The position numbers and the translations under genes were made by a program. Below, piece by piece: positions 18,958 to 32,404 of a stretch of DNA of 64,000 bases (the stretch's first letter is position 1; every line of letters begins with the position of its first letter). The stretch comes from an uncultured Fusobacteriaceae bacterium (GTDB taxonomy: Bacteria; Fusobacteriota; Fusobacteriia; Fusobacteriales; Fusobacteriaceae): contig CAMQWJ010000003.1 in assembly GCA_947038515.1 (NCBI GenBank), positions 1 to 64,000 on the forward strand, read 5' to 3'. The notes under the pieces were generated by a model, which was not told the origin of the DNA, did not search any database, and was given only the letters and a program-made list of their open reading frames with translations.

Positions 18958-21900
18958 TTGAAAATACAAGAAATAGAAAAGTCATTAAAAAGATTTTTAA
19001 AAAAGAAAGGAAGTTTCTCAGCAGCATTATTGGTAATGTTTCTAATATCAGGAACAATATCTTTAGGTGGTGTAGAATCTGTAACAGAAATTAATGGAAT
19101 TAAAGGAGATATTTTAGTAAAGATTAAACAAGAAAGAGAAAAAATAAAAGTAAAAATAAAAGAAAATAAAAGTAAAATATCAGAAGAAACAGCGATGTTT
19201 GATACCTTGGTTAAAGAATGGGATTTTTATGGAAAGCCACTTGGGCAAAATACTCAGGTATTTTTTACATATGATAAAATAAATAATGGTTCAGGAAAAG
19301 ATAGAACAAAAGAGGAATGGAGTCCAACAATAGATGCTGTAGTATCATCAGGACTAAGTAGTGATGTAGCTTTAGATAAAGTTATGGCAGGGGCTGGAAC
19401 AGTGATAGATAGTACTACATTTAGAGAAACAATAAAAATATCTGCTAATATTGTGCCTTTAGTTCCAGAAATACCAGTAATTAATAAAGATATTAATGTG
19501 AATATAAATAAACCTCAAATAGGAGAAATAGGGACACCAAATATCCCAGTATTTATTACCCCAGAAACATTAGAGATTAAGACTGTAACTGTTGATTCAG
19601 TTGATGTTCCAAGATTTAATGTACCAACAATTACAGCTCCAGGAGCAGTAGCGTCTATTAATGTAACAGCTCCAGTAATACCTAATGTAAATGTGCCTGG
19701 GGATAGAGAAATAAGTATGGTAGCCCCAGATGCTCCCGGAGGGTTTATACCTAGTCAAATAACTCCTCCAAAAGCACCAGGGATTCCAGTAATAGTACCA
19801 CCAACATTACCTGATTTTACTACTTCAATTACATTTGATGGAAATCATGCTATGAGTACAGTATTTTATTCTGATATAAAAAATGATGACTTTTTTTATA
19901 AAAATGGACTAATTGAAATGGTAACAATTACAGGTGGAGAATTTAAGATTCAGAGACCTGGGGATGATAAATGGCATTATGAATTTAATGATTATACAGG
20001 AGTAAATTCTTTTGCTCAAGGATCTAATGCAAAAATTTTGATTCCAGGTGAAACACTTTCAACTGTGGGAGTAAATGGAACTTGGAATTTGTCAACTACG
20101 GAACCTAAAAGTTCAATAGAAAAATTAGGATTCCAAAAATTAGTAGGAAGTAGTACAAACTCTACAATGGTTAGTAATGCTAATTTTTTATATACCAACA
20201 CAAAGGATAGTAACACTTTAAATGAATTTGCTCATTTGGACATACATGAGGCTGCCCCAGTAGCAGGAGAACGTATTAAATTACTTTTTGGAACTACTGG
20301 ACTTTCTAATCAAGCTGAAATAATGGCTGCATTTGATGATGGAGTAAAAATAAATCCATCAGGATACGCAACCACACCCAACTCTAAAGTTTTCACATGG
20401 ATTAATAGTGGAAAAATTGTAATTGAAGGAGCTAATGGAATAGTAACTAATCATTATGATCATGGACCTTTTGCTGGTTCATCATATAAAGCGATGGCAA
20501 TAAATACAGGTGAAATATTTTTAGTTCCGTATAAAAATGGTACAGAAAATAAGGATACTAACAATGGTGTTTTTGGAATGTCACAGGATGGATTCAGGAT
20601 ACACCATGTAATGTATAATAGTGGTATAATTGATTCTTATTCTCTAAAATCTTTTATTTTTTTAGGTTCAGGGGGAGCAACTAGACCTCTAAGTGTTGTA
20701 AATAGAGGTGAAATAAAGCTGAAGGGTGAAAATTCAGCTGGAGTATATATAAAAACAAATTCTAAAAATCAGTTTGAATTTACTACAGAAGACTTTGTAC
20801 TAGGTACAACAGGTAGCTATAATCCTATTGAGATGTATGGAGACAAAAATATAGGGTTATATATAACTGCAACTAATGCTACAAATAATAAGGGGAATTT
20901 TGCAGTAGATATAGGAAGTACCAATGTAGGAAACCAAGTATTTAATACGTTGTTACATAATGGTTTGGACTATACAACAGGAGATAAGCTTACAAATGTT
21001 AATGTAAATCCTACTGGAGGAGCTAATACAAATATAGAAGGAAGTTTTGGAATATTATCAAGTTCAACTCTTGCTTTAGATTCACATCAAATAAGAATAT
21101 ATGATAAGACAGAATCCAGTGTAGGAGTAACACCTATGGATAATGCTATTCTATCATTAGGGGCTGGAAATATAGAACTTAATGGTGGGACCCAAAATAT
21201 AGGTTTATATATATCAGGAACAGGTATTAATACAGGAAAAATAGATACAATTGGTACAGTGAAATTAGCGGGTGGATTTTCGAATATGGGAGCATATACA
21301 TCTGGAGTGGGCAATGATATCCAGGTTAAAAAAATAGAGGGAACAGATTTGACTGATTCAATATTCCTTTTTGCAGGGGAAGGAAGTAAGATAGTGAGTA
21401 CTGAAGGAATATCTATGATAGGGAAAGTATCTGTAGATGCAAATTCAACTAATAAAAAAGATTCTGGAGCAGCATTTGCAATGGGAACTAATTCTTTAAT
21501 TACAATAAATAAGGTAAGTTTTGATACGAATGTCAATATTTCTGTGACAGGAGCAGTTCAAACTGATACAGGAGATGTGTTAGGATTCGCCTTAATGGCA
21601 GGGTCAGGTGGAAAGATAGAAGCTCAAAATAATAATATAGAAGTCTTAAATGGCTCAACAGGAATAGCTTCAATAGGTTTAGATTCAAATGTAGATTTCA
21701 CAGGTGGAAGATTAAAATATGATGGAAATGGTTATGCAGTTTATTCTGATGGAGCAGGAAAAATAGATTTATCAGGAGCAACAGTTGAATTATATGGAAA
21801 ATCTACTGCTTTTGATTTAAACTTAGATCCATTAGCAATAAGTACAATCAAATTAGATGCTGACACAAAGATAAAAGTAGAATCTAATGATGTAATAGTT

Positions 21901-24900
21901 TTTAATTTGAAAGAGGCTAATAATCTAAATACTACAGGCTTAGAAGCAAGTATTATAAATGCAATAGAAACTGCAACAGGTGAAAATTTGTCTGATTTAA
22001 TAGAAGCAGGAGCAGGAATAGATAAATATAAGACAGCAGCAGTAGATGGAGGGAGTATTACTGTAGGAAGCTTAGATAGAACAGGAACAGGTGCAGTTGG
22101 AGAAAGTACAGCACAAGCTGATGGAAACTTTTACTACAATAGATTCTTGGGTCAAAGACTTGTTGCGACAACTACTGCTGGTAGTACAATATCAGCAGTA
22201 TTAAGTAATGGACAAGGAGAGAAATATAATAACCAAGTAGTAGGATTTGAGATGAACTCTAGTAGTTCAGCAGTGGCTAATACTGAAGCAGCTATTCACT
22301 TAATCGGAAGTACAGTAATAGCAGATAGAACAGAACTTGCTAGAACAGGAGAAAATGGTGGAATTGGTCTATTTATAAATTACGGAACAGTAACAGTAGA
22401 TGGAACAAGTAAAATAGAAGTAGAGATGGACAATAGAAATCATATAAATGAAGGTGGAGTAGGAGTATACTCTGTAAATGGAAGTAATATTAAGACTGAT
22501 GGAATAATAGAAGTAGCAGGAGATAAATCCACTGGAATTATAGGAATGGCGTATAGAGAAGACGCTAATGGGATTCCGATTCCTAATGAATTTGGAACAG
22601 CAGCAGTAGGACAAGGAGAAGTTAATATTTCAAATACAGGAACTATAACTTTAATTGGGATAGGAAGTATTGGGATATATGTAGATAATAATAATGGTGC
22701 TGGAACAGTATCAACTTCAAAAGTAGAGAATAGTGGGATTATAAAAGTAGGTTCGACTAACAGTGTAGGAACTTCAGTAGGAATATATGGAGAGAAATCG
22801 ACTATTTCAAATTTGGGAACAATAGAAGTAGGGAATGGTGGAGTAGGAATATATGGAGAAAAGGGGTCTATAATAGATGCCTTGGGTAACATCAATTTAG
22901 GTTCAGATGGAATAGGAGTAATATTAGATGAAACTTCAAATATAACAGCGACTAATATGATTTTAGGAACATCAGCAGTAGGTGTACCAGATGTAAATGG
23001 AAAAATTGGTATCATGTATCAACTATCAAAAGACGAACAAACTCCATTAACTCCAAAAGTTATACCATTAAGTATAGACAGTAGCTCATTAGATAAAGCA
23101 ATAGCAATTTATGTAGAAGGAGCAAATATAAAATCTACTGGTAATTTAAAAGTAGGTGATAATGGAGTAGGACTATATTCAAAAAATGGTATAGTAGAAA
23201 ATACAGGAACAATTGAATTAGGAACAAAAACAAGTGCAACTGGAATGTATTTGCAGACTACTGCAGGAACTGCAGGAAGTATATCTAACACTGGAACAGG
23301 AAAGATAACAGTAGGTAATAATACTCAATTTGGTATGATTGGAGCCGGAGCCGGTTCAACTATAATAAATAGTGGAACTATTGAATTAAAAGTTGCAGGA
23401 AGTGTAGGTATTTATGCACAAGATGGAGCAACAGTAGAATTATCAGGATCTAATATAATTTTTGAAGCAGGAAAAGTAGGTTCAATAGGAGTATATACAA
23501 ATAATGCTACTATTAATATTGCTGGTGTAGTTGGACATAGTACAACAAATGCAGATAAAAATATTTTGATATATGGAAAAAATGGAAGTACTATCAATAA
23601 TATTGGTGGATTAAGTGTAGATGGAATAAGTTCATCAGGTACTGATAAGACAATCGGAATATATTTGGATGGTACTGATGGTACTACTAATACATATAAT
23701 TCACGAAATTCTCTAACAGTAACCAATGAAGCTATAGGGATATATTCGAAAGGAAATATTACATTGAACTTTAATGGTACTAGTGGAACGACGAATGAAT
23801 TAATTGCAACAGGAATCAATACAACAGGAGCCTTTATAGATGGAACAGCAACATTAAATGGAAATATTATGTCTGATAGTGGGGCGATAGGAGTTTATGG
23901 AAAAGGTGGACTAATAACACTTGATTCTTTAACGACAATAACTCTTGGAGCAACAGCTAATTCAACAGGAATATATTTAGAAAATGGAGCTTCTCTATTA
24001 GGAGATTTGACTGTAAATGGAAGTAATAATAGTATAGGAGTATATTATTCAGGAGCAACTCCAGTAACTAGTGATGGAAATATGACATTAATAAATACAG
24101 GAGTCTCTGGTAATGTTGTAGGAATATTTGCTGGTGGTGCAAATACAGTAGTAACAAATAATGGAAATGTAACAGGAATAGGTTCAAATAATGTTGTAGC
24201 AACAATGGCAGCAACAGGAGGAACATTAAATATAGGTGGAACAATCACAGTTGATGGAAAAGATAGTGTAGGAGCTTTTGCTTCTGAGAAAGGAAAAATA
24301 ATAAATAAAGGCACTATTAATGCAAGTAATGCAAGTAACCCATTGGCTGATACAACAATTGGAATGATGGCTTCAAGTATAACTGCTGGTAAAACAGCTA
24401 GTATAGAAAATGAATCAACAATTACAGGAACTGGAAGTAAAGATGTAGGAATGTATCTAGGAACCTCTATGGGAATTAATGCAGGAAAAAATAGTGGAAC
24501 AGTTAGTGTAGTAGATGGTATTGCTGTTTATCTTGAAGGTGGATTAAATACATTTGATAATACAGGAGCATTAAATGTAACAGGTAATGGAATAGGAATG
24601 TATTTAAAAGAAAGTGGAGCAGGACAAATAAAAAATACAGGAACTATTGATTTAACTGGAACACAAGGAAAAGGAGTTTATGCAGAAAATGCTGTTATAG
24701 ATTTTGATGTAACAACAACTGGTGTAGCTGGAGGTATAGGAATCTATGCGACAGGAGAACTAAGCCCAGGAATACAAGGACGAGGAACAACTATAAATAG
24801 TACAGTAACTGTAGGAGACGGGCAGATAGGAATTTATAGTGCTGATGCTAATGTTAATTTAGATGGAGCAACAGTAGTAGCAGGAAACAAAGTGGGATCT

Positions 24901-27900
24901 CAAAGTTCAATAGGTATTTATTTGAAAAATATGGTTAGTACTCCTCAATATACAATGGCAGGAACAAATGTAACAGTAGGAGATGGGATAGGAATATATT
25001 TAGGAAATAATGAAATGCTAGGAACTCCAGCAACCCAAGGAGTAAACTTAACATTAAATGGAGTAGTAACAACCACAAGTGGAATAGGTATTTATGTTCC
25101 TAAAAAAAGTAAGTTAACTACAGGTACAGTTACATTGAATGTTGGTGGAATAAATGGAATAGGGGTATATTTAGCAGGTGGAGAAGTAAATTTAGGAACA
25201 GGTTCTGAAACACTTACATTAGGTCTAAATGGAATCAATTCTACAGGAGTCTATGTAAATGGAGGAACGCTAAATTTAGGAAATAATATAGTCGTGACAG
25301 GTGAAGGAAGAGTAGCAACAGCAACAAATGGTAGTTTAAATGCAGAGACAATTCTAAATGTAGGTAAAAACTCACAAGGACTATTAGGAAGTTATATTAA
25401 ATCTAATGCAGGAACACCATATACAATAACTAATAAACTTTCAGGAGTTATAACCATAAGAGAAGGTGGAGCAGGGTTAGTAGCAACTCTTGGTACTCCT
25501 CCCTCAGGTATTACTATTCCCCATATTAAATTAGCAACAGTAATAAATTTAGGAACTTTAAATGTTGATGGACATACTATTAATAATGGAATAAAAGTAG
25601 ATTCAATAGGTATCTATTCAGAAGTTGGTGACATAAATAATATAGGTGTGATAAACTTAACAGGTGATGGTGGAGTAGGAATATCATATCACGGAAAGAC
25701 TATTTCAAGTGATATAGCAAATAATGGGATTATTAATTTAAACGGAACAAATGAAATAGGAATGTATTTAACAGGAAATATAGGAAATGTTACAAATGGT
25801 ACAATGATTTCAACAACAGCTAATAATACAGGAATCGTATTGGCGGGAGCAGTTGCAGGAACACAGACAACTATACCAAATTTAGATCTTGGAACTATTT
25901 CGCTAGGAACAGAAAGTATAGGTTTAATGCTAAATGATATAGATATAACTGCATCAACAGGGACTATATCAGTAAATGAAGGAAGCTTAACGAAGTCTTC
26001 TATAGGTGTTTATGGAGAAAATTCTACTATAAATGGAATTATAGATGTTGAAGTTAAAGCAAACGGAATAGCATACTATCTGAAGGAATCAACGACAAGT
26101 ATAGATTTCACTATGACTAGAGTAGGTTCTGGAGGAACATATTTATATGCAAAGGATAGTATTATAACTGTTACAGGCGACTTATTGGTAGGGGCTGGAC
26201 AGACTGGAATAATTTCAGAAGATTCAAGTATAAACTTTGCTACTTCAGGAAGTAGATTTAATGTTTCAGATGGTGGAATAGGATTAATATTAAAAGGAGG
26301 TTCTCTAGGAGGAACACTTCCAGTAATAGATGTAACCGCAGGAACAGCTAATCAATATTCTATAGGAGCTTATTATGAAGATTTAGGAGTTATAACAGGT
26401 TCTTTAAGTTCTGTAACTCAAACTGGAGATTATACAATAGCCCATATATTTGATGGTACTAGCGGTGCGATTGCTCCTATAAACTTGGGAACAAATGGAA
26501 ACAATCAAATAGGAATAATGGGGAAAAATAATTCAGATATAACTGTAAATGGAATTATTGATGTTTCAGGAGATGAAAATATAGGTGTTTATGCAGATGT
26601 AACTTCGTCAAACAGTGTGATAACAGGAGCTGTTAAAGTTGGAGCTTCAAGTATAAGAGATAAATCTTCAATAGGAGTATATGTAAAGAAAGGTTCATAT
26701 ACAGGTGGAGCATTAAGTGTAGGAAATAATTCAATAGGAATATACGGAGAAGAAATAGGTGGTAGCTTCACCCAAGCAGGTGGAATAGATGTAGCTGATT
26801 CAGCCTTAGGAATTTTTGTCCAAAGCAATACAGCAGGAATAACAGTAACTCAAACAGGTGGACTACAAGTAGGAAATACAGGTTCAATAGGAATATATGG
26901 TTCGGAAGCTAATATATCTGTAAATTCAACAGGAGTGCCTACAATAGATAAAGTAGGAACAGGAACTTCAATAGGAATATTAAGTCAAGGATTAGGAGAT
27001 GTTAGCTATACAGGAAGTATGGATATAGCCAATAGTCCAGCCAAAGGTTCAATAGGAATTTATAAAAATGGAATAGGAACAATAACAACAGGAGCAGGAA
27101 ATATTACTGTTGGAGATGCAGGATATGGAATCTATTCAATAAATGATACTCTAACAAGAGGGTCATCAGATATATCAAATAGTGCAAATATGACTCTAGG
27201 AGCATCGACAATTGGAATTTATTCAAAAGGAACAGGAGTAATAACAAATTCAGGACTACTTGATGTAGGAAAGACTACATATAGCAATGCAAGTGGTGAC
27301 AATCCAACTTTAAGCTATACAACTAATTCAAAAAATCATGTAAATTCTATAGGAATTTATTCAGATGGAGGAAAAGTAGTAAATACAGGAACAATAAAAG
27401 TTGATGAGGAACATTCAATAGGAGTTTATGTAAGTAACGGAAGTATGGAGAATAGAGGAACTATAAATGTAACAAATGGTGGTTTAGGAGTATATATATT
27501 AAATAATACAACAGCTTCAAACTATGGAACAATAACAGTTGATGGAATGGGAACAAGTGAAAACTGGAGATCAATAGGAATATCAATATCGAATAATTCA
27601 ATATTTACAAATGAAGTTGGAGGAACAATTGATATAAGTGGTGGAATAGGAATAAATATAAGTGCCTTAGGTGGGGTTTTTAAAAATGAAGGAACAGTTA
27701 ATTTAAGCGGTGGAACAGGAATTTATGGTGGAACGCTTAATGGAGGAACAATTAATATAACTGGTGGAACAGGAAGTGAATCAGAGACGAAACCATCAGG
27801 AGTAGGAAGTGTTAATATAACTGGTGATGGGCAAGTAATAATAGGTGGAGACTACGCATCAGTGGGAGGATCTCTAAATGCAGCAGGAGCAGATATAACA

Positions 27901-29298
27901 CTGAATGGAGCTTGGATAGAAGGGACAATAAATTCAAATGGACCACTGTTCTCAGGAAACACTGTAACAGGAGAAATTAATCTATTACCAGGATTTATAT
28001 CAGGGGAACCAAATACAATACTAGAAGGTTTCTTCAACAACTTTACGGGAGTGACAAGTCTTCCTAATGGTATAACGGTAATAACATCACCATTGTATGT
28101 AGCTAAACAAGTAGGAGAAGATTTAGTGGTAGTAAAACGACCATATGCAGATTTAAGTGTGGGAAGTCAATTTGATGAATTAGAAAAAGGTTTAGATAAT
28201 TTACGAGATATTGCTAATGGAAACAAAAATGATAGTGATATATTGGTTAATTTAGATAAATATCTAAATGGACTTCGTGGAGATGAGTTTGCAGAAGAAA
28301 CAGGAAAAGCCATAGCTGAGACAAGAGGAGATATTTATGGAACAATTCAAGGAAGAATGCAAGATGTAAATAGAGCATTTGATAATTCTTTTGATGAATT
28401 GCTAAATTCATATAACCCTTCGCGACAAAGTGATAAGTTTAGTGTTCTTTATACAGAAGGAGACTTTAAAGATCCAACAGTAGGAATATCAGATTATGAC
28501 TATGATGTAAAAGGTTTATTGTATATGCATGAAAAAGAGGGACTAAAATATGGAACTAAATATGGATATACATTAGGATTTACAGGGTCAACATTTAAAT
28601 TTGATGATGATACAGCCGGTTCATCAGGTTCAGAAGAAGATATTTATAGCTTGAGAGTAGGAGCCCATAGAGAGCAAAAACTAGGAACAAGTAAATTTAC
28701 TTGGTTAACAAGAGGAGAATTAGCATATAACTATCATGATACAGAGAGAAATATGCAAATAGGCCCAGAAAAATATGATAATGAAGCAGGTTATAGCTCG
28801 TATGGAGCAAGCTTTAAGAATGAACTGTCATATAAAGCCTACTCAACTCTATCAACAGATTTAAAAGTTTATGGAGGAGCAAATTTAGAATATGGAGCAA
28901 TGGAAGGATTTACTGAGAAAACAGGTTCAAAAGGTGGACTTGAATTGGAAGTAAAAGGAAATGACTACTTCATAGGAGAATTAGAGGCAGGATTGAAAGG
29001 AAGTAAGAAAATTTATCTAGGAAAGAATATCAATCTAAAAGTAAGTGCAGATGCAGGTTATGCATATGATTTAGGAGATAACTATCCAGGAAATAAAGCA
29101 AAATTAAAGAATGGTGGAGAAGGTTACTATGATTTAATAACAACAGAAAAAGCAGAAGGTTCGCTAAGAGGAAAAGTAGGGTTAGGATTAGAAAAAGCGA
29201 ATCATTATGGAGTAACATTTGAAGTTGAATGGAACAAGAGAGACAACAGAAGTGATGAAGATATTAAATATAGTGCAAGACTTAATTACAAGTTTTAA
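18958..29298 (+). CDS. Giant type V autotransporter adhesin
   Basis: This 3,446-residue surface protein starts at TTG with AGGAGA 6-7 nt upstream. An extended fusobacterial-type signal (KSLKRFLKKKGSFSAALLVM and a following hydrophobic run) leads to a short Lys-rich helical stretch (about 46-70). A Pro/Val-rich segment follows at about 165-275. A very long passenger (about 440-3000) is made of 22-23-residue rungs marked VGIYG or IGIYS, consistent with a beta-solenoid. A helical linker precedes a C-terminal beta-barrel of about 290 residues ending LNYKF with the terminal Phe expected for BAM assembly. No protease domain was seen. It probably adheres to host cells or other bacteria, as other fusobacterial autotransporters do; the ligand is unknown. 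Confidence 0.93.
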   Translation: MKIQEIEKSLKRFLKKKGSFSAALLVMFLISGTISLGGVESVTEINGIKGDILVKIKQEREKIKVKIKENKSKISEETAMFDTLVKEWDFYGKPLGQNTQVFFTYDKINNGSGKDRTKEEWSPTIDAVVSSGLSSDVALDKVMAGAGTVIDSTTFRETIKISANIVPLVPEIPVINKDINVNINKPQIGEIGTPNIPVFITPETLEIKTVTVDSVDVPRFNVPTITAPGAVASINVTAPVIPNVNVPGDREISMVAPDAPGGFIPSQITPPKAPGIPVIVPPTLPDFTTSITFDGNHAMSTVFYSDIKNDDFFYKNGLIEMVTITGGEFKIQRPGDDKWHYEFNDYTGVNSFAQGSNAKILIPGETLSTVGVNGTWNLSTTEPKSSIEKLGFQKLVGSSTNSTMVSNANFLYTNTKDSNTLNEFAHLDIHEAAPVAGERIKLLFGTTGLSNQAEIMAAFDDGVKINPSGYATTPNSKVFTWINSGKIVIEGANGIVTNHYDHGPFAGSSYKAMAINTGEIFLVPYKNGTENKDTNNGVFGMSQDGFRIHHVMYNSGIIDSYSLKSFIFLGSGGATRPLSVVNRGEIKLKGENSAGVYIKTNSKNQFEFTTEDFVLGTTGSYNPIEMYGDKNIGLYITATNATNNKGNFAVDIGSTNVGNQVFNTLLHNGLDYTTGDKLTNVNVNPTGGANTNIEGSFGILSSSTLALDSHQIRIYDKTESSVGVTPMDNAILSLGAGNIELNGGTQNIGLYISGTGINTGKIDTIGTVKLAGGFSNMGAYTSGVGNDIQVKKIEGTDLTDSIFLFAGEGSKIVSTEGISMIGKVSVDANSTNKKDSGAAFAMGTNSLITINKVSFDTNVNISVTGAVQTDTGDVLGFALMAGSGGKIEAQNNNIEVLNGSTGIASIGLDSNVDFTGGRLKYDGNGYAVYSDGAGKIDLSGATVELYGKSTAFDLNLDPLAISTIKLDADTKIKVESNDVIVFNLKEANNLNTTGLEASIINAIETATGENLSDLIEAGAGIDKYKTAAVDGGSITVGSLDRTGTGAVGESTAQADGNFYYNRFLGQRLVATTTAGSTISAVLSNGQGEKYNNQVVGFEMNSSSSAVANTEAAIHLIGSTVIADRTELARTGENGGIGLFINYGTVTVDGTSKIEVEMDNRNHINEGGVGVYSVNGSNIKTDGIIEVAGDKSTGIIGMAYREDANGIPIPNEFGTAAVGQGEVNISNTGTITLIGIGSIGIYVDNNNGAGTVSTSKVENSGIIKVGSTNSVGTSVGIYGEKSTISNLGTIEVGNGGVGIYGEKGSIIDALGNINLGSDGIGVILDETSNITATNMILGTSAVGVPDVNGKIGIMYQLSKDEQTPLTPKVIPLSIDSSSLDKAIAIYVEGANIKSTGNLKVGDNGVGLYSKNGIVENTGTIELGTKTSATGMYLQTTAGTAGSISNTGTGKITVGNNTQFGMIGAGAGSTIINSGTIELKVAGSVGIYAQDGATVELSGSNIIFEAGKVGSIGVYTNNATINIAGVVGHSTTNADKNILIYGKNGSTINNIGGLSVDGISSSGTDKTIGIYLDGTDGTTNTYNSRNSLTVTNEAIGIYSKGNITLNFNGTSGTTNELIATGINTTGAFIDGTATLNGNIMSDSGAIGVYGKGGLITLDSLTTITLGATANSTGIYLENGASLLGDLTVNGSNNSIGVYYSGATPVTSDGNMTLINTGVSGNVVGIFAGGANTVVTNNGNVTGIGSNNVVATMAATGGTLNIGGTITVDGKDSVGAFASEKGKIINKGTINASNASNPLADTTIGMMASSITAGKTASIENESTITGTGSKDVGMYLGTSMGINAGKNSGTVSVVDGIAVYLEGGLNTFDNTGALNVTGNGIGMYLKESGAGQIKNTGTIDLTGTQGKGVYAENAVIDFDVTTTGVAGGIGIYATGELSPGIQGRGTTINSTVTVGDGQIGIYSADANVNLDGATVVAGNKVGSQSSIGIYLKNMVSTPQYTMAGTNVTVGDGIGIYLGNNEMLGTPATQGVNLTLNGVVTTTSGIGIYVPKKSKLTTGTVTLNVGGINGIGVYLAGGEVNLGTGSETLTLGLNGINSTGVYVNGGTLNLGNNIVVTGEGRVATATNGSLNAETILNVGKNSQGLLGSYIKSNAGTPYTITNKLSGVITIREGGAGLVATLGTPPSGITIPHIKLATVINLGTLNVDGHTINNGIKVDSIGIYSEVGDINNIGVINLTGDGGVGISYHGKTISSDIANNGIINLNGTNEIGMYLTGNIGNVTNGTMISTTANNTGIVLAGAVAGTQTTIPNLDLGTISLGTESIGLMLNDIDITASTGTISVNEGSLTKSSIGVYGENSTINGIIDVEVKANGIAYYLKESTTSIDFTMTRVGSGGTYLYAKDSIITVTGDLLVGAGQTGIISEDSSINFATSGSRFNVSDGGIGLILKGGSLGGTLPVIDVTAGTANQYSIGAYYEDLGVITGSLSSVTQTGDYTIAHIFDGTSGAIAPINLGTNGNNQIGIMGKNNSDITVNGIIDVSGDENIGVYADVTSSNSVITGAVKVGASSIRDKSSIGVYVKKGSYTGGALSVGNNSIGIYGEEIGGSFTQAGGIDVADSALGIFVQSNTAGITVTQTGGLQVGNTGSIGIYGSEANISVNSTGVPTIDKVGTGTSIGILSQGLGDVSYTGSMDIANSPAKGSIGIYKNGIGTITTGAGNITVGDAGYGIYSINDTLTRGSSDISNSANMTLGASTIGIYSKGTGVITNSGLLDVGKTTYSNASGDNPTLSYTTNSKNHVNSIGIYSDGGKVVNTGTIKVDEEHSIGVYVSNGSMENRGTINVTNGGLGVYILNNTTASNYGTITVDGMGTSENWRSIGISISNNSIFTNEVGGTIDISGGIGINISALGGVFKNEGTVNLSGGTGIYGGTLNGGTINITGGTGSESETKPSGVGSVNITGDGQVIIGGDYASVGGSLNAAGADITLNGAWIEGTINSNGPLFSGNTVTGEINLLPGFISGEPNTILEGFFNNFTGVTSLPNGITVITSPLYVAKQVGEDLVVVKRPYADLSVGSQFDELEKGLDNLRDIANGNKNDSDILVNLDKYLNGLRGDEFAEETGKAIAETRGDIYGTIQGRMQDVNRAFDNSFDELLNSYNPSRQSDKFSVLYTEGDFKDPTVGISDYDYDVKGLLYMHEKEGLKYGTKYGYTLGFTGSTFKFDDDTAGSSGSEEDIYSLRVGAHREQKLGTSKFTWLTRGELAYNYHDTERNMQIGPEKYDNEAGYSSYGASFKNELSYKAYSTLSTDLKVYGGANLEYGAMEGFTEKTGSKGGLELEVKGNDYFIGELEAGLKGSKKIYLGKNINLKVSADAGYAYDLGDNYPGNKAKLKNGGEGYYDLITTEKAEGSLRGKVGLGLEKANHYGVTFEVEWNKRDNRSDEDIKYSARLNYKF

Positions 29299-29734: not shown

Positions 29735-31534
29735 TTAATTTGAAATTTCATTAAGAAAGAATTTTTTACACTTGGCCAGTACTTCTTCGTTAACAGTAGC
29801 AACAATTTTATTACCTTCAGGTTGAAATTCTTCTGAAATGATATTAGAATTTCTATGAAGGAATGCTGCAAATGAAGTTTCAGAATATGGAATTAAAAAT
29901 TCACAAGTTTTCATAGTTTTAGGTAAGTGTTTTGTCATACTTTCTAAAAGTAGGTCTAAATTAAGATTATTTTGTGCACTTATTTCAACTATTTCATAAT
30001 GAGAATAGTCAGTTCGAAGTGAAATAAGAGTTTCCTCACTTGTAAGGTCAATTTTATTAAGAGCTAGAATAATTGTTTTATCAGCCATGCCAAGTTCAAA
30101 AAAAACATGTTCAACTGCTTTTATTTGCTCATGTACAGTGTCACTAGAGCTATCTACAACATGTATAATTAAATCTGAAAAAATAACTTCTTCTAATGTA
30201 GATTTAAAGGCTTCAATAAGATCATGTGGAAGTTTTCTAACAAAACCAACAGTATCAGCAAGAGAAGCAATTCTTTTATCAGGTAGAGAAATTGTTCTAG
30301 TTGTTGTTTCCAGTGTAGCAAAAAGAAGATCTTCAGCAAAGACTTCCTCTTTTTTTATATTGTTTTCAGCAGGATATAAATCGACTAGTTTGTTTCGTAA
30401 AGAAGATTTTCCTGCATTAGTATATCCAGCTAGAGAAATTTTTGGTATTCCAGATTCAACTCTTCTTTCTCTTTGAATACTTCTATTCTTTCTAATCTTT
30501 TCTAATTCTTGTTTTAAATCAAAAATAGCTTCTTTTATTCGTCGTCTATCAATTTCTAATTTTTTCTCTCCAGGACCTTTAGTTCCAATTCCACCACCGA
30601 TTCGAGACATTAAACTTCCAAGTCCTATTAAACGATGACTACGATATTTTAATTGTGCAAGTTCAACTTGAATTTTAGATTCTCTAGTTTTAGCACGACG
30701 AGCAAATATTTCTAAAATAAGAGTAGTACGGTCTATGACCTTACATCCTGTTACAAGTTCTAAATTCTTGATTTGTACTCCTGAAAGTTCTTCATCAAAA
30801 ATTAGGAGGTTGGCTCCTTTAACTTGTTGTAAAAGGGATAAAGAACGTGCTTTTCCACTTCCTATAAAAAAGATATTATCAGGTCTTGATTTTTTTTGAA
30901 ATAAAACATCAGCAACTCTTATGTTACAAGCACGTGCAAGTTCACCAAGTTCAACTAGACTTTCTTGTGTATCTATACCAACAAGAATAGCAACTTCATC
31001 ATCATTTTCCAATATGATTCTTTTTCTAAGCTCAGTTTCAACTAATTCTATTCTTGATAAAAAATTTAAATTTTCTGTCTGTTCAATATTTAGAGGTCCT
31101 ATTTGTTCATGGCTTAATGTTCCATCTTCTATGGTACAAAAACCTACATGAAGACCATTAATTCCATTTTCAGTAATACCAATAGCTAAAATAGCATCAA
31201 GTTTTAATTTAATAAGTGCTGAAATATCAACACTTGATAAATTTGAAAAGCCACTGGGGTGAGTATGGACTATTCGGATACCAGCAAGTTTTTTATCACT
31301 TGTATTTAAGATTGGAAGCTGAACAGTACTACTATCTCCAATAGAGACTTCAATAACATTTCCCTTTCGATCTATTGCAACATTTATTTCACGATTTATT
31401 TGATAACTTACATTACATATTCCATCAATTATCTCTTGATTTAAAAGTTGACTTTTTTCTACTTTTATATTATAAAGAGATTCTAAATCCTTAAGGATAT
31501 GCTCTCTAACTCCTTCAATATTTCCTTTTATCAT
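29735..31534 (-). CDS. hflX: HflX-family ribosome-associated GTPase with N-terminal JAMM-like domain
   Basis: This 599-residue protein is about 180 longer than E. coli HflX. Residues 200 to 370 form the HflX domain (DVLFQKKSRPDNIFFIGSGKA, RTKL-like helices, GIGTKGPGEKKLEIDRRRI). Residues about 375-545 are the GTPase: LAGYTNAGKSS (G1), ADTVGFVRKLPH (G3), ALNKIDL (G4). HflX splits stalled or hibernating ribosomes. The N-terminal extension carries HTHPSGFSNLSSVD, matching the JAMM metalloprotease motif HxHP-x6-S-x2-D, with a candidate Glu49. ATG 31532-31534 is chosen because GGAG lies 9 nt upstream. cvfB precedes it by 15 nt. Confidence 0.93.
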   Translation of the reverse strand: MIKGNIEGVREHILKDLESLYNIKVEKSQLLNQEIIDGICNVSYQINREINVAIDRKGNVIEVSIGDSSTVQLPILNTSDKKLAGIRIVHTHPSGFSNLSSVDISALIKLKLDAILAIGITENGINGLHVGFCTIEDGTLSHEQIGPLNIEQTENLNFLSRIELVETELRKRIILENDDEVAILVGIDTQESLVELGELARACNIRVADVLFQKKSRPDNIFFIGSGKARSLSLLQQVKGANLLIFDEELSGVQIKNLELVTGCKVIDRTTLILEIFARRAKTRESKIQVELAQLKYRSHRLIGLGSLMSRIGGGIGTKGPGEKKLEIDRRRIKEAIFDLKQELEKIRKNRSIQRERRVESGIPKISLAGYTNAGKSSLRNKLVDLYPAENNIKKEEVFAEDLLFATLETTTRTISLPDKRIASLADTVGFVRKLPHDLIEAFKSTLEEVIFSDLIIHVVDSSSDTVHEQIKAVEHVFFELGMADKTIILALNKIDLTSEETLISLRTDYSHYEIVEISAQNNLNLDLLLESMTKHLPKTMKTCEFLIPYSETSFAAFLHRNSNIISEEFQPEGNKIVATVNEEVLAKCKKFFLNEISN

Positions 31535-31549
31535 AATTATCAACTCCGT

Positions 31550-32404
31550 TTATAAAGAAATAGTTTTAACTTGAAAACCTTTTTCAGTTTTTTCAATTAA
31601 TCCATTCTTAAGAAGATTACCAATGGCTCTTTTAAAAGCTTTTTTACTCATATCAAAGAAATGTTTAATGTCATCAGGTGAAGAATCATCTGAGAATCTA
31701 AAGTTTTCTTTAAGTAAATTCATTTTCTCTAAAATAAATAATGCATCTTTATCCATTTGTTGACGAAGTAATTCTCTTGTTGCAAGATCTAATTTTCCAT
31801 CTTCTCTAACTCTTATAACTCTACACTCTAATTGTTCACCAATTTTAAAAGTTCTAAAAACTTCACTTATAGGAATTAATCCAAAGTACCGATTATCTAC
31901 TGCAACAAAAACACCAACTTCTTCATTAATGTTATAAACTGTTCCTGAAACCATATCATTTTTTTCATAATCTTTACAAGGAAGAAGAAAGCTATATAAT
32001 TTCATAGTAGCTGAAATTCGTCCTTTTCTATCTTCATAAATACCAACAAGAGGCTTATCCCCAATACTAACTTTACAATTTTGCTGGTCATTAGGCAGTA
32101 AAATATCTTTATTTAATCCCCAATATAAAAATGCTCCTAATGAAGGATTGACATCAACAACTTCTAAAGAGGAAATAGTTCCTACAAGGACCTCAGTAAC
32201 TCTAAAAGTTGCAATAGTTCTATCTTCAGAATCTTTATATATAAGTACATCAACTTCATCATTCTCTTTTAAATCTTTACCTTCCAATTCATTTGCAGGT
32301 AATAAAATATTATCTAAATAATCTTCAGTTTGTCCATCTAAGTAAGCACCGATTTTTGTAAAATTAATAATTTTAAGCGTTTGTCTTTTTCCCATCTTAA
32401 TCAT
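31550..32404 (-). CDS. CvfB/YitL-like S1-domain RNA-binding protein
   Basis: This 284-residue protein has tandem S1-like OB domains and a winged-helix end: KIINFTKIGAYLDG, then NPSLGAFLYWGLNKDILLPN, then VYNINEEVGVFVAVDNRYFG with LIPISE and CRVIRVREDGKLDLA. The tail MSKKAFKRAIGNLLKNGLIE resembles a winged helix. CvfB of Staphylococcus is an RNA-binding regulator of virulence genes. It shares a short gap with hflX downstream, so the two are likely cotranscribed. SD AGGAGA. Confidence 0.85.
   Translation of the reverse strand: MIKMGKRQTLKIINFTKIGAYLDGQTEDYLDNILLPANELEGKDLKENDEVDVLIYKDSEDRTIATFRVTEVLVGTISSLEVVDVNPSLGAFLYWGLNKDILLPNDQQNCKVSIGDKPLVGIYEDRKGRISATMKLYSFLLPCKDYEKNDMVSGTVYNINEEVGVFVAVDNRYFGLIPISEVFRTFKIGEQLECRVIRVREDGKLDLATRELLRQQMDKDALFILEKMNLLKENFRFSDDSSPDDIKHFFDMSKKAFKRAIGNLLKNGLIEKTEKGFQVKTISL

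Follow-up and report, generated by a model that had tools for sequence, protein, structure and literature searches.

The window analysed here, a 64,000-nucleotide stretch of DNA from an uncultured Fusobacteriaceae bacterium, encodes on its reverse strand a 599-residue HflX protein with an extra domain ahead of the HflX core. Translation starts at an ATG at position 31534, which is preceded by AACGGAGTTGATAATT, with GGAG before the ATG. The features of the gene are as follows, with A1 and A2 denoting two alignments defined below.

29738..31534, reverse strand: long HflX, 599 amino acids (stop codon 29735-29737; ORF 29735-31543)
31001..31534, reverse strand: N-terminal JAMM-like domain, residues 1 to ~178 (AlphaFold2 model, Foldseek, profile against PDB)
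31388..31390, reverse strand: Glu49, putative catalytic base and first residue of β-strand 49-55 (invariant in A1 and A2)
31265..31267, reverse strand: His90, putative metal ligand (invariant in A1 and A2)
31259..31261, reverse strand: His92, putative metal ligand (invariant in A1 and A2)
31235..31237, reverse strand: Ser100, serine of the JAMM motif (invariant in A1 and A2)
31226..31228, reverse strand: Asp103, putative metal ligand in the N-terminal part of helix 101-109 (invariant in A1 and A2; model)
30701..30964, reverse strand: HflX ND1 (Pfam GTP-bdg_N), residues 191-278 (Pfam)
30461..30697, reverse strand: HflX helical domain (Pfam GTP-bdg_M), residues 280-358 (Pfam)
30053..30442, reverse strand: HflX GTPase domain (MMR_HSR1), residues 365-494 (Pfam)

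The HflX core matches TIGR03156 over residues 188-536 (E 1.5e-126), scoring 422 bits against a cut-off of 216.75 for the GTP_HflX equivalog, and a Pfam scan places GTP-bdg_N, GTP-bdg_M, and MMR_HSR1 in that order, all C-terminal to the extra domain. Judged by these model matches, the gene product is an HflX, from the family of ribosome-splitting GTPases. It is the sole HflX of the source genome, with the remaining matches to HflX models falling far under the cut-off. A gene for a CvfB-like S1/winged-helix RNA-binding protein (31550-32404, reverse strand) ends ~15 bases before the hflX start, a neighbor that comparison of gene contexts found next to hflX only inside the genus. A very large, repeat-rich, autotransporter-like ORF of 3446 amino acids (18958-29298, forward strand) is convergent with hflX.

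HflX has been studied as a factor in ribosome rescue, hibernation, and antibiotic tolerance, with the short forms from E. coli, Listeria, and Mycobacterium as models. The protein in the window has the ND1, helical, and GTPase domains in common with known HflX proteins (TIGR03156; E. coli HflX, Listeria HflX/HflXr), but carries ~185 additional residues before ND1, compared with a total length of about 420-450 amino acids for short HflX. In the available excerpts of a 2025 HflX review (PMC12493154), HflX binds 70S and 50S particles with ND1 displacing helix 69, and N-terminal extensions are mentioned in several Clostridium and Paenibacilli with no domain named. The review also describes an extension before ND1 in mycobacterial HflX, as in the protein studied here. 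In mycobacteria, however, it is 39-58 residues long and contacts rRNA, touching uL16, H38, and H69-71 (PMC12493154), whereas the extension in the window is a predicted folded domain with a metalloprotease signature.

Residues 90-103 of the protein (HTHPSGFSNLSSVD) fit H-x-H-P-x6-S-x2-D exactly, and Glu49 lies 41 residues before His90, in agreement with an earlier sequence-only reading of this DNA that had described an ungapped motif with this spacing. The N-domain therefore carries the JAMM/MPN+ pattern E-xn-H-x-H-x7-S-x2-D. When residues 1-180 were shuffled 400,000 times, H-x-H-x7-S-x2-D arose by chance in 0.046% of the shuffles, in 0.032% when the upstream Glu was also required, and in 0.00025% for the version of the motif with Pro. 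Conservation is a stronger argument for the motif than this rarity. In an alignment of 24 close sequences (A1), the invariant columns include E49, H90, T91, H92, P93, S100, and D103. In an alignment of 96 intact sequences with 23-70% identity to the query (A2), the sole invariant columns are E49, G66, H90, T91, H92, S100, and D103. Because motif-less copies were set aside from A2, the unbiased conservation figure comes from Fusobacteriaceae and Clostridia copies that were not selected by motif, 121 distinct ones in all, each fused to HflX: 113 of them keep all five residues (E49, H90, H92, S100, D103), always with a spacing of 13 between H90 and D103. The metal residues, on whose conservation in long HflX relatives the sequence-only reading had staked its proposal, are thus conserved. 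The signature is lost in the other eight natural copies, with several of the residues gone together. One genome (G125) has two long HflX paralogues (L121 and L122), one intact and the second with ERNTD for EHHSD.

These counts bear on whether the N-domain might instead be a non-catalytic MPN-type docking module, with a JAMM fold and perhaps a structural zinc, that binds the ribosome or a partner and tunes splitting. Ligand-less copies do persist in long HflX proteins, and PMC12493154 describes the mycobacterial extension as acting by contact (H68-H71) and not by catalysis. However, retention of Glu49, Ser100, and the three ligands in 113 of 121 copies despite identity down to 23% is unexpected for a docking fold, and the motif-less sequences lost several signature residues together. 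We consider a docking-only role of the domain rather unlikely, with the natural motif-less copies as its main support. The sequence-only reading had allowed for either a hydrolase or a dead docking fold, and since the signature is complete in most copies and lost in eight, both alternatives occur.

Scans of single N-domain sequences against Pfam, NCBIfam, and PDB gave nothing above threshold, and therefore profiles were used. Against Pfam RadC (PF04002) the single sequence scored 12.7 bits (E 0.12), short of the gathering score of 22.1, and by this measure it is a relative of the family and not a member. It likewise falls short of the 25-bit gathering score of Pfam Prok-JAB (PF14464), to which a relative at G308:C7 scores 24.2 bits. 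Prok-JAB and RadC are nevertheless the families met by most members, with sub-threshold matches in 14 of 24 (weak, best E 0.018) and 12 of 24, respectively. When a deep profile was searched against all PDB sequences, the top 12 matches were AMSH, Sst2, and STAMBP JAMM peptidases (E from 0.0025), with alignments in register through HTHP...SxxD. Alignment of the domain profile with hhalign gave E-values of 1.2e-4 for RadC and 8e-4 for Prok-JAB. Because the positive control, RadC against Prok-JAB, itself reached only 1.6e-5, the distance of the domain is near the usual remoteness within the superfamily. The profile was also used to rank 3,753 ORFs from the gathered loci, with 59 RadC/JAB proteins among them. 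Non-HflX ranks 5-34 hold 28 RadC/JAB proteins, one frame-shifted HflX-domain piece, and one unrelated protein, and three column-shuffled profiles gave no RadC/JAB enrichment on these ORFs. The frame-shifted piece is L103_-_2_16, a candidate 'other' protein in the ranking that was rejected as an N-terminal fragment of an HflX domain. The expected match to JAB and RadC models therefore stayed below threshold for single sequences and was present for the profile, and the proposed likeness of the motif to that of RadC holds in the register of the hhalign alignment.

RadC-like JAB (PF04002) and Prok-JAB (PF14464) are the nearest bacterial relatives by profile and share the motif register, but RadC has HNHPSG and other flanking elements, whereas the HflX N-domain has HTHP and lies below the Pfam cut-offs. 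The AMSH/Sst2 (STAMBP) de-ubiquitinases, which provide the best PDB profile matches, share the HTHP-x6-S-x2-D register. In contrast to the HflX N-domain, they are eukaryotic, act on ubiquitin substrates, and have no GTPase fusion, and their E-value to the N-domain is just 0.0025.

An AlphaFold2 model of the N-domain calculated with 96 sequences has a pLDDT of 90 and a pTM of 0.85. Its first half consists of helix 11-22, helix 33-46, strand 49-55 with Glu49 as the first residue, and strand 59-66, followed in the second half by strand 86-92 with the HTH at its end, helix 101-109 with Asp103 near its start, strands 114-121, 124-136, and 139-148, and helix 158-171. We take this order of strands and helices to be the JAMM order, and in the model the strand and helix positions are compatible with an arrangement of E, H, H, and D around one metal. 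The top Foldseek matches in the PDB are mainly CSN5, RadC, SRU_2040, BubCD, and Mov34, with probabilities up to 0.97 (RadC) and 0.96 (CSN5). Because the E-values are weak (best 1.6e-3, never 1e-3) and the TM-scores mostly 0.2-0.5, the fold is divergent. A library of viral models gave a match with an E-value of 1.5e-6 and a probability of 1.00, and the named matches there include RadC-like JAB, MPN family, 26S proteasome subunit, and metalloprotease. From a model with this pLDDT and Foldseek results dominated by JAMM, RadC, and MPN structures, we conclude that the N-domain is a predicted divergent JAMM domain. The sequence-only reading of a JAMM-like N-domain in this HflX, including its JAB-like fold, is supported by a separate domain, its conserved signature, and the profile and fold matches. 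The sub-threshold single-sequence scans would suit an unrelated extension in which the motif arose by accident, but that explanation is refuted by invariance across two phyla and by independent profile and fold matches, and is extremely improbable.

The domain occurs in Clostridia and in one branch of Fusobacteriaceae. Of 61 Fusobacteriota genomes sampled, 24 carry it, every one of them from the source's own family. In the order to which Clostridium mobile belongs (Clostridiales), 112 of 117 genomes have it. Among 299 genomes of the phylum of Clostridium mobile, 55 gave a domain match, one of which (G258) is a RadC. Genomes lacking the domain either encode a short HflX (about 420-450 amino acids) or have none. 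No free-standing copy of the domain was found among the 479 genomes searched, and every domain match examined shares a frame with an HflX core except L113, L114, L115, and L026. In L114 and L115 the domain is frame-broken. L113 was rejected as a free-standing copy, being a true RadC (PF04002 E 3.2e-39), and L026 (G014, 173 amino acids) was rejected as an unrelated protein with a chance match. In G095 (L115), a stop and a frame change break the N-domain directly before an intact 434-residue HflX core, an apparent loss of the domain in progress or an assembly error. Because eight copies are motif-less and this genome has a decayed domain with an intact HflX, the domain is separable from HflX. 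These same cases, along with the short HflX of some genomes, indicate that catalysis is not always needed.

A quick, unrooted tree of 97 HflX cores supplied the phylogeny of the fusion that the sequence-only reading had proposed. Fusobacterial long HflX proteins fall into a single clade (SH-aLRT 99) that lies within the clostridial long forms, fusobacterial short forms cluster elsewhere with clostridial short forms, and the tree requires at least 8 changes between long and short. These groupings are most simply explained if the fused gene passed once from Clostridiales to the ancestor of the fusobacterial group and was lost repeatedly elsewhere; because the tree is quick and unrooted, we infer the direction of transfer. 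In Fusobacterium animalis pSB029A (L230, NZ_CP077186.1), a long HflX gene annotated merely as 'GTPase HflX' is carried by a replicon of 219 kb that is recorded as a plasmid.

The nearest published parallel to the HflX fusion is RadC-like DinG (PMC11981726), which also has a RadC/JAMM-like domain N-terminal to a P-loop nucleic-acid motor, but with a DNA helicase and not a ribosome GTPase as the partner. The source genome encodes a protein of this description (L189:1986-4430, forward strand, G000 contig C15), with an 814-residue product comprising a RadC-like N-domain (HNHPSGYLYPSDAD) and a DinG/YoaA-type helicase, and PF04002 matches in ORFs of about 810-860 amino acids recur across most Fusobacteriota genomes searched. 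In the RadC of the source genome (L190:760-1542, reverse strand, G000 contig C2), an insertion splits the PF04002 match in two, and the same split is seen in both other genomes of the genus (G001 and G002).

The HflX fusion could also be read as a JAMM hydrolase with a translation-unrelated substrate, for which HflX is a partner of convenience. RadC, among the nearest relatives, is without settled function and is also free-standing, and RadC-like domains are fused to DinG helicases too. Yet the 479 genomes hold no free-standing copy of the HflX N-domain, and the intact domain is always in the HflX frame. This constancy argues for a coupled function, and we regard a substrate outside translation as improbable.

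The N-domain is most likely a catalytically active zinc hydrolase that is recruited to stalled ribosomes; we infer its activity and substrate and take the ribosome link from the fusion. His90, His92, and Asp103 would hold the zinc, with Glu49 as the general base, and the predicted site would hydrolyze a peptide or isopeptide bond. Stalled or vacant 70S/50S particles would receive this site through the HflX core: its ND1 docks at the subunit interface, at helix 69, and a domain ahead of ND1 would sit there. A ribosome-associated protein, such as a bound factor, a ribosomal-protein tail, or a peptide remnant, could then be cut in step with splitting; the neighbor genes of hflX were searched for a clue to the substrate and gave none. 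Overall, it is probable that the protein is an HflX with a genuine divergent N-terminal JAMM/MPN+ metalloprotease that is likely catalytically active and cuts a ribosome-associated protein during splitting. More tentatively, the HflX proteins of Clostridia and Fusobacteria could constitute a previously undescribed ribosome-coupled metalloprotease, with an active JAMM domain whose target would be a specific protein on ribosomes that have stalled or been split. Such an enzyme would be a bacterial counterpart of Rpn11 on the proteasome, a JAMM protease beside a P-loop motor. In a search limited to the openly readable literature, no paper connected HflX with JAMM/JAB, and papers naming both HflX and JAMM look unrelated by title and abstract. 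The JAMM-HflX fusion is seemingly undescribed, with priority not proven.

To our knowledge, the roles of bacterial JAMM/RadC-like domains are mostly unknown, and the HflX fusion gives them a functional context. A long HflX with the signature of a zinc protease of the de-ubiquitinase type suggests that ribosome splitting may be coupled to protein cutting. Among the fusobacteria concerned is a strain of Fusobacterium animalis that came from a colorectal tumour. If most Clostridiales and these fusobacteria use an HflX with a built-in metalloprotease, ribosome splitting in them may include a proteolytic step.
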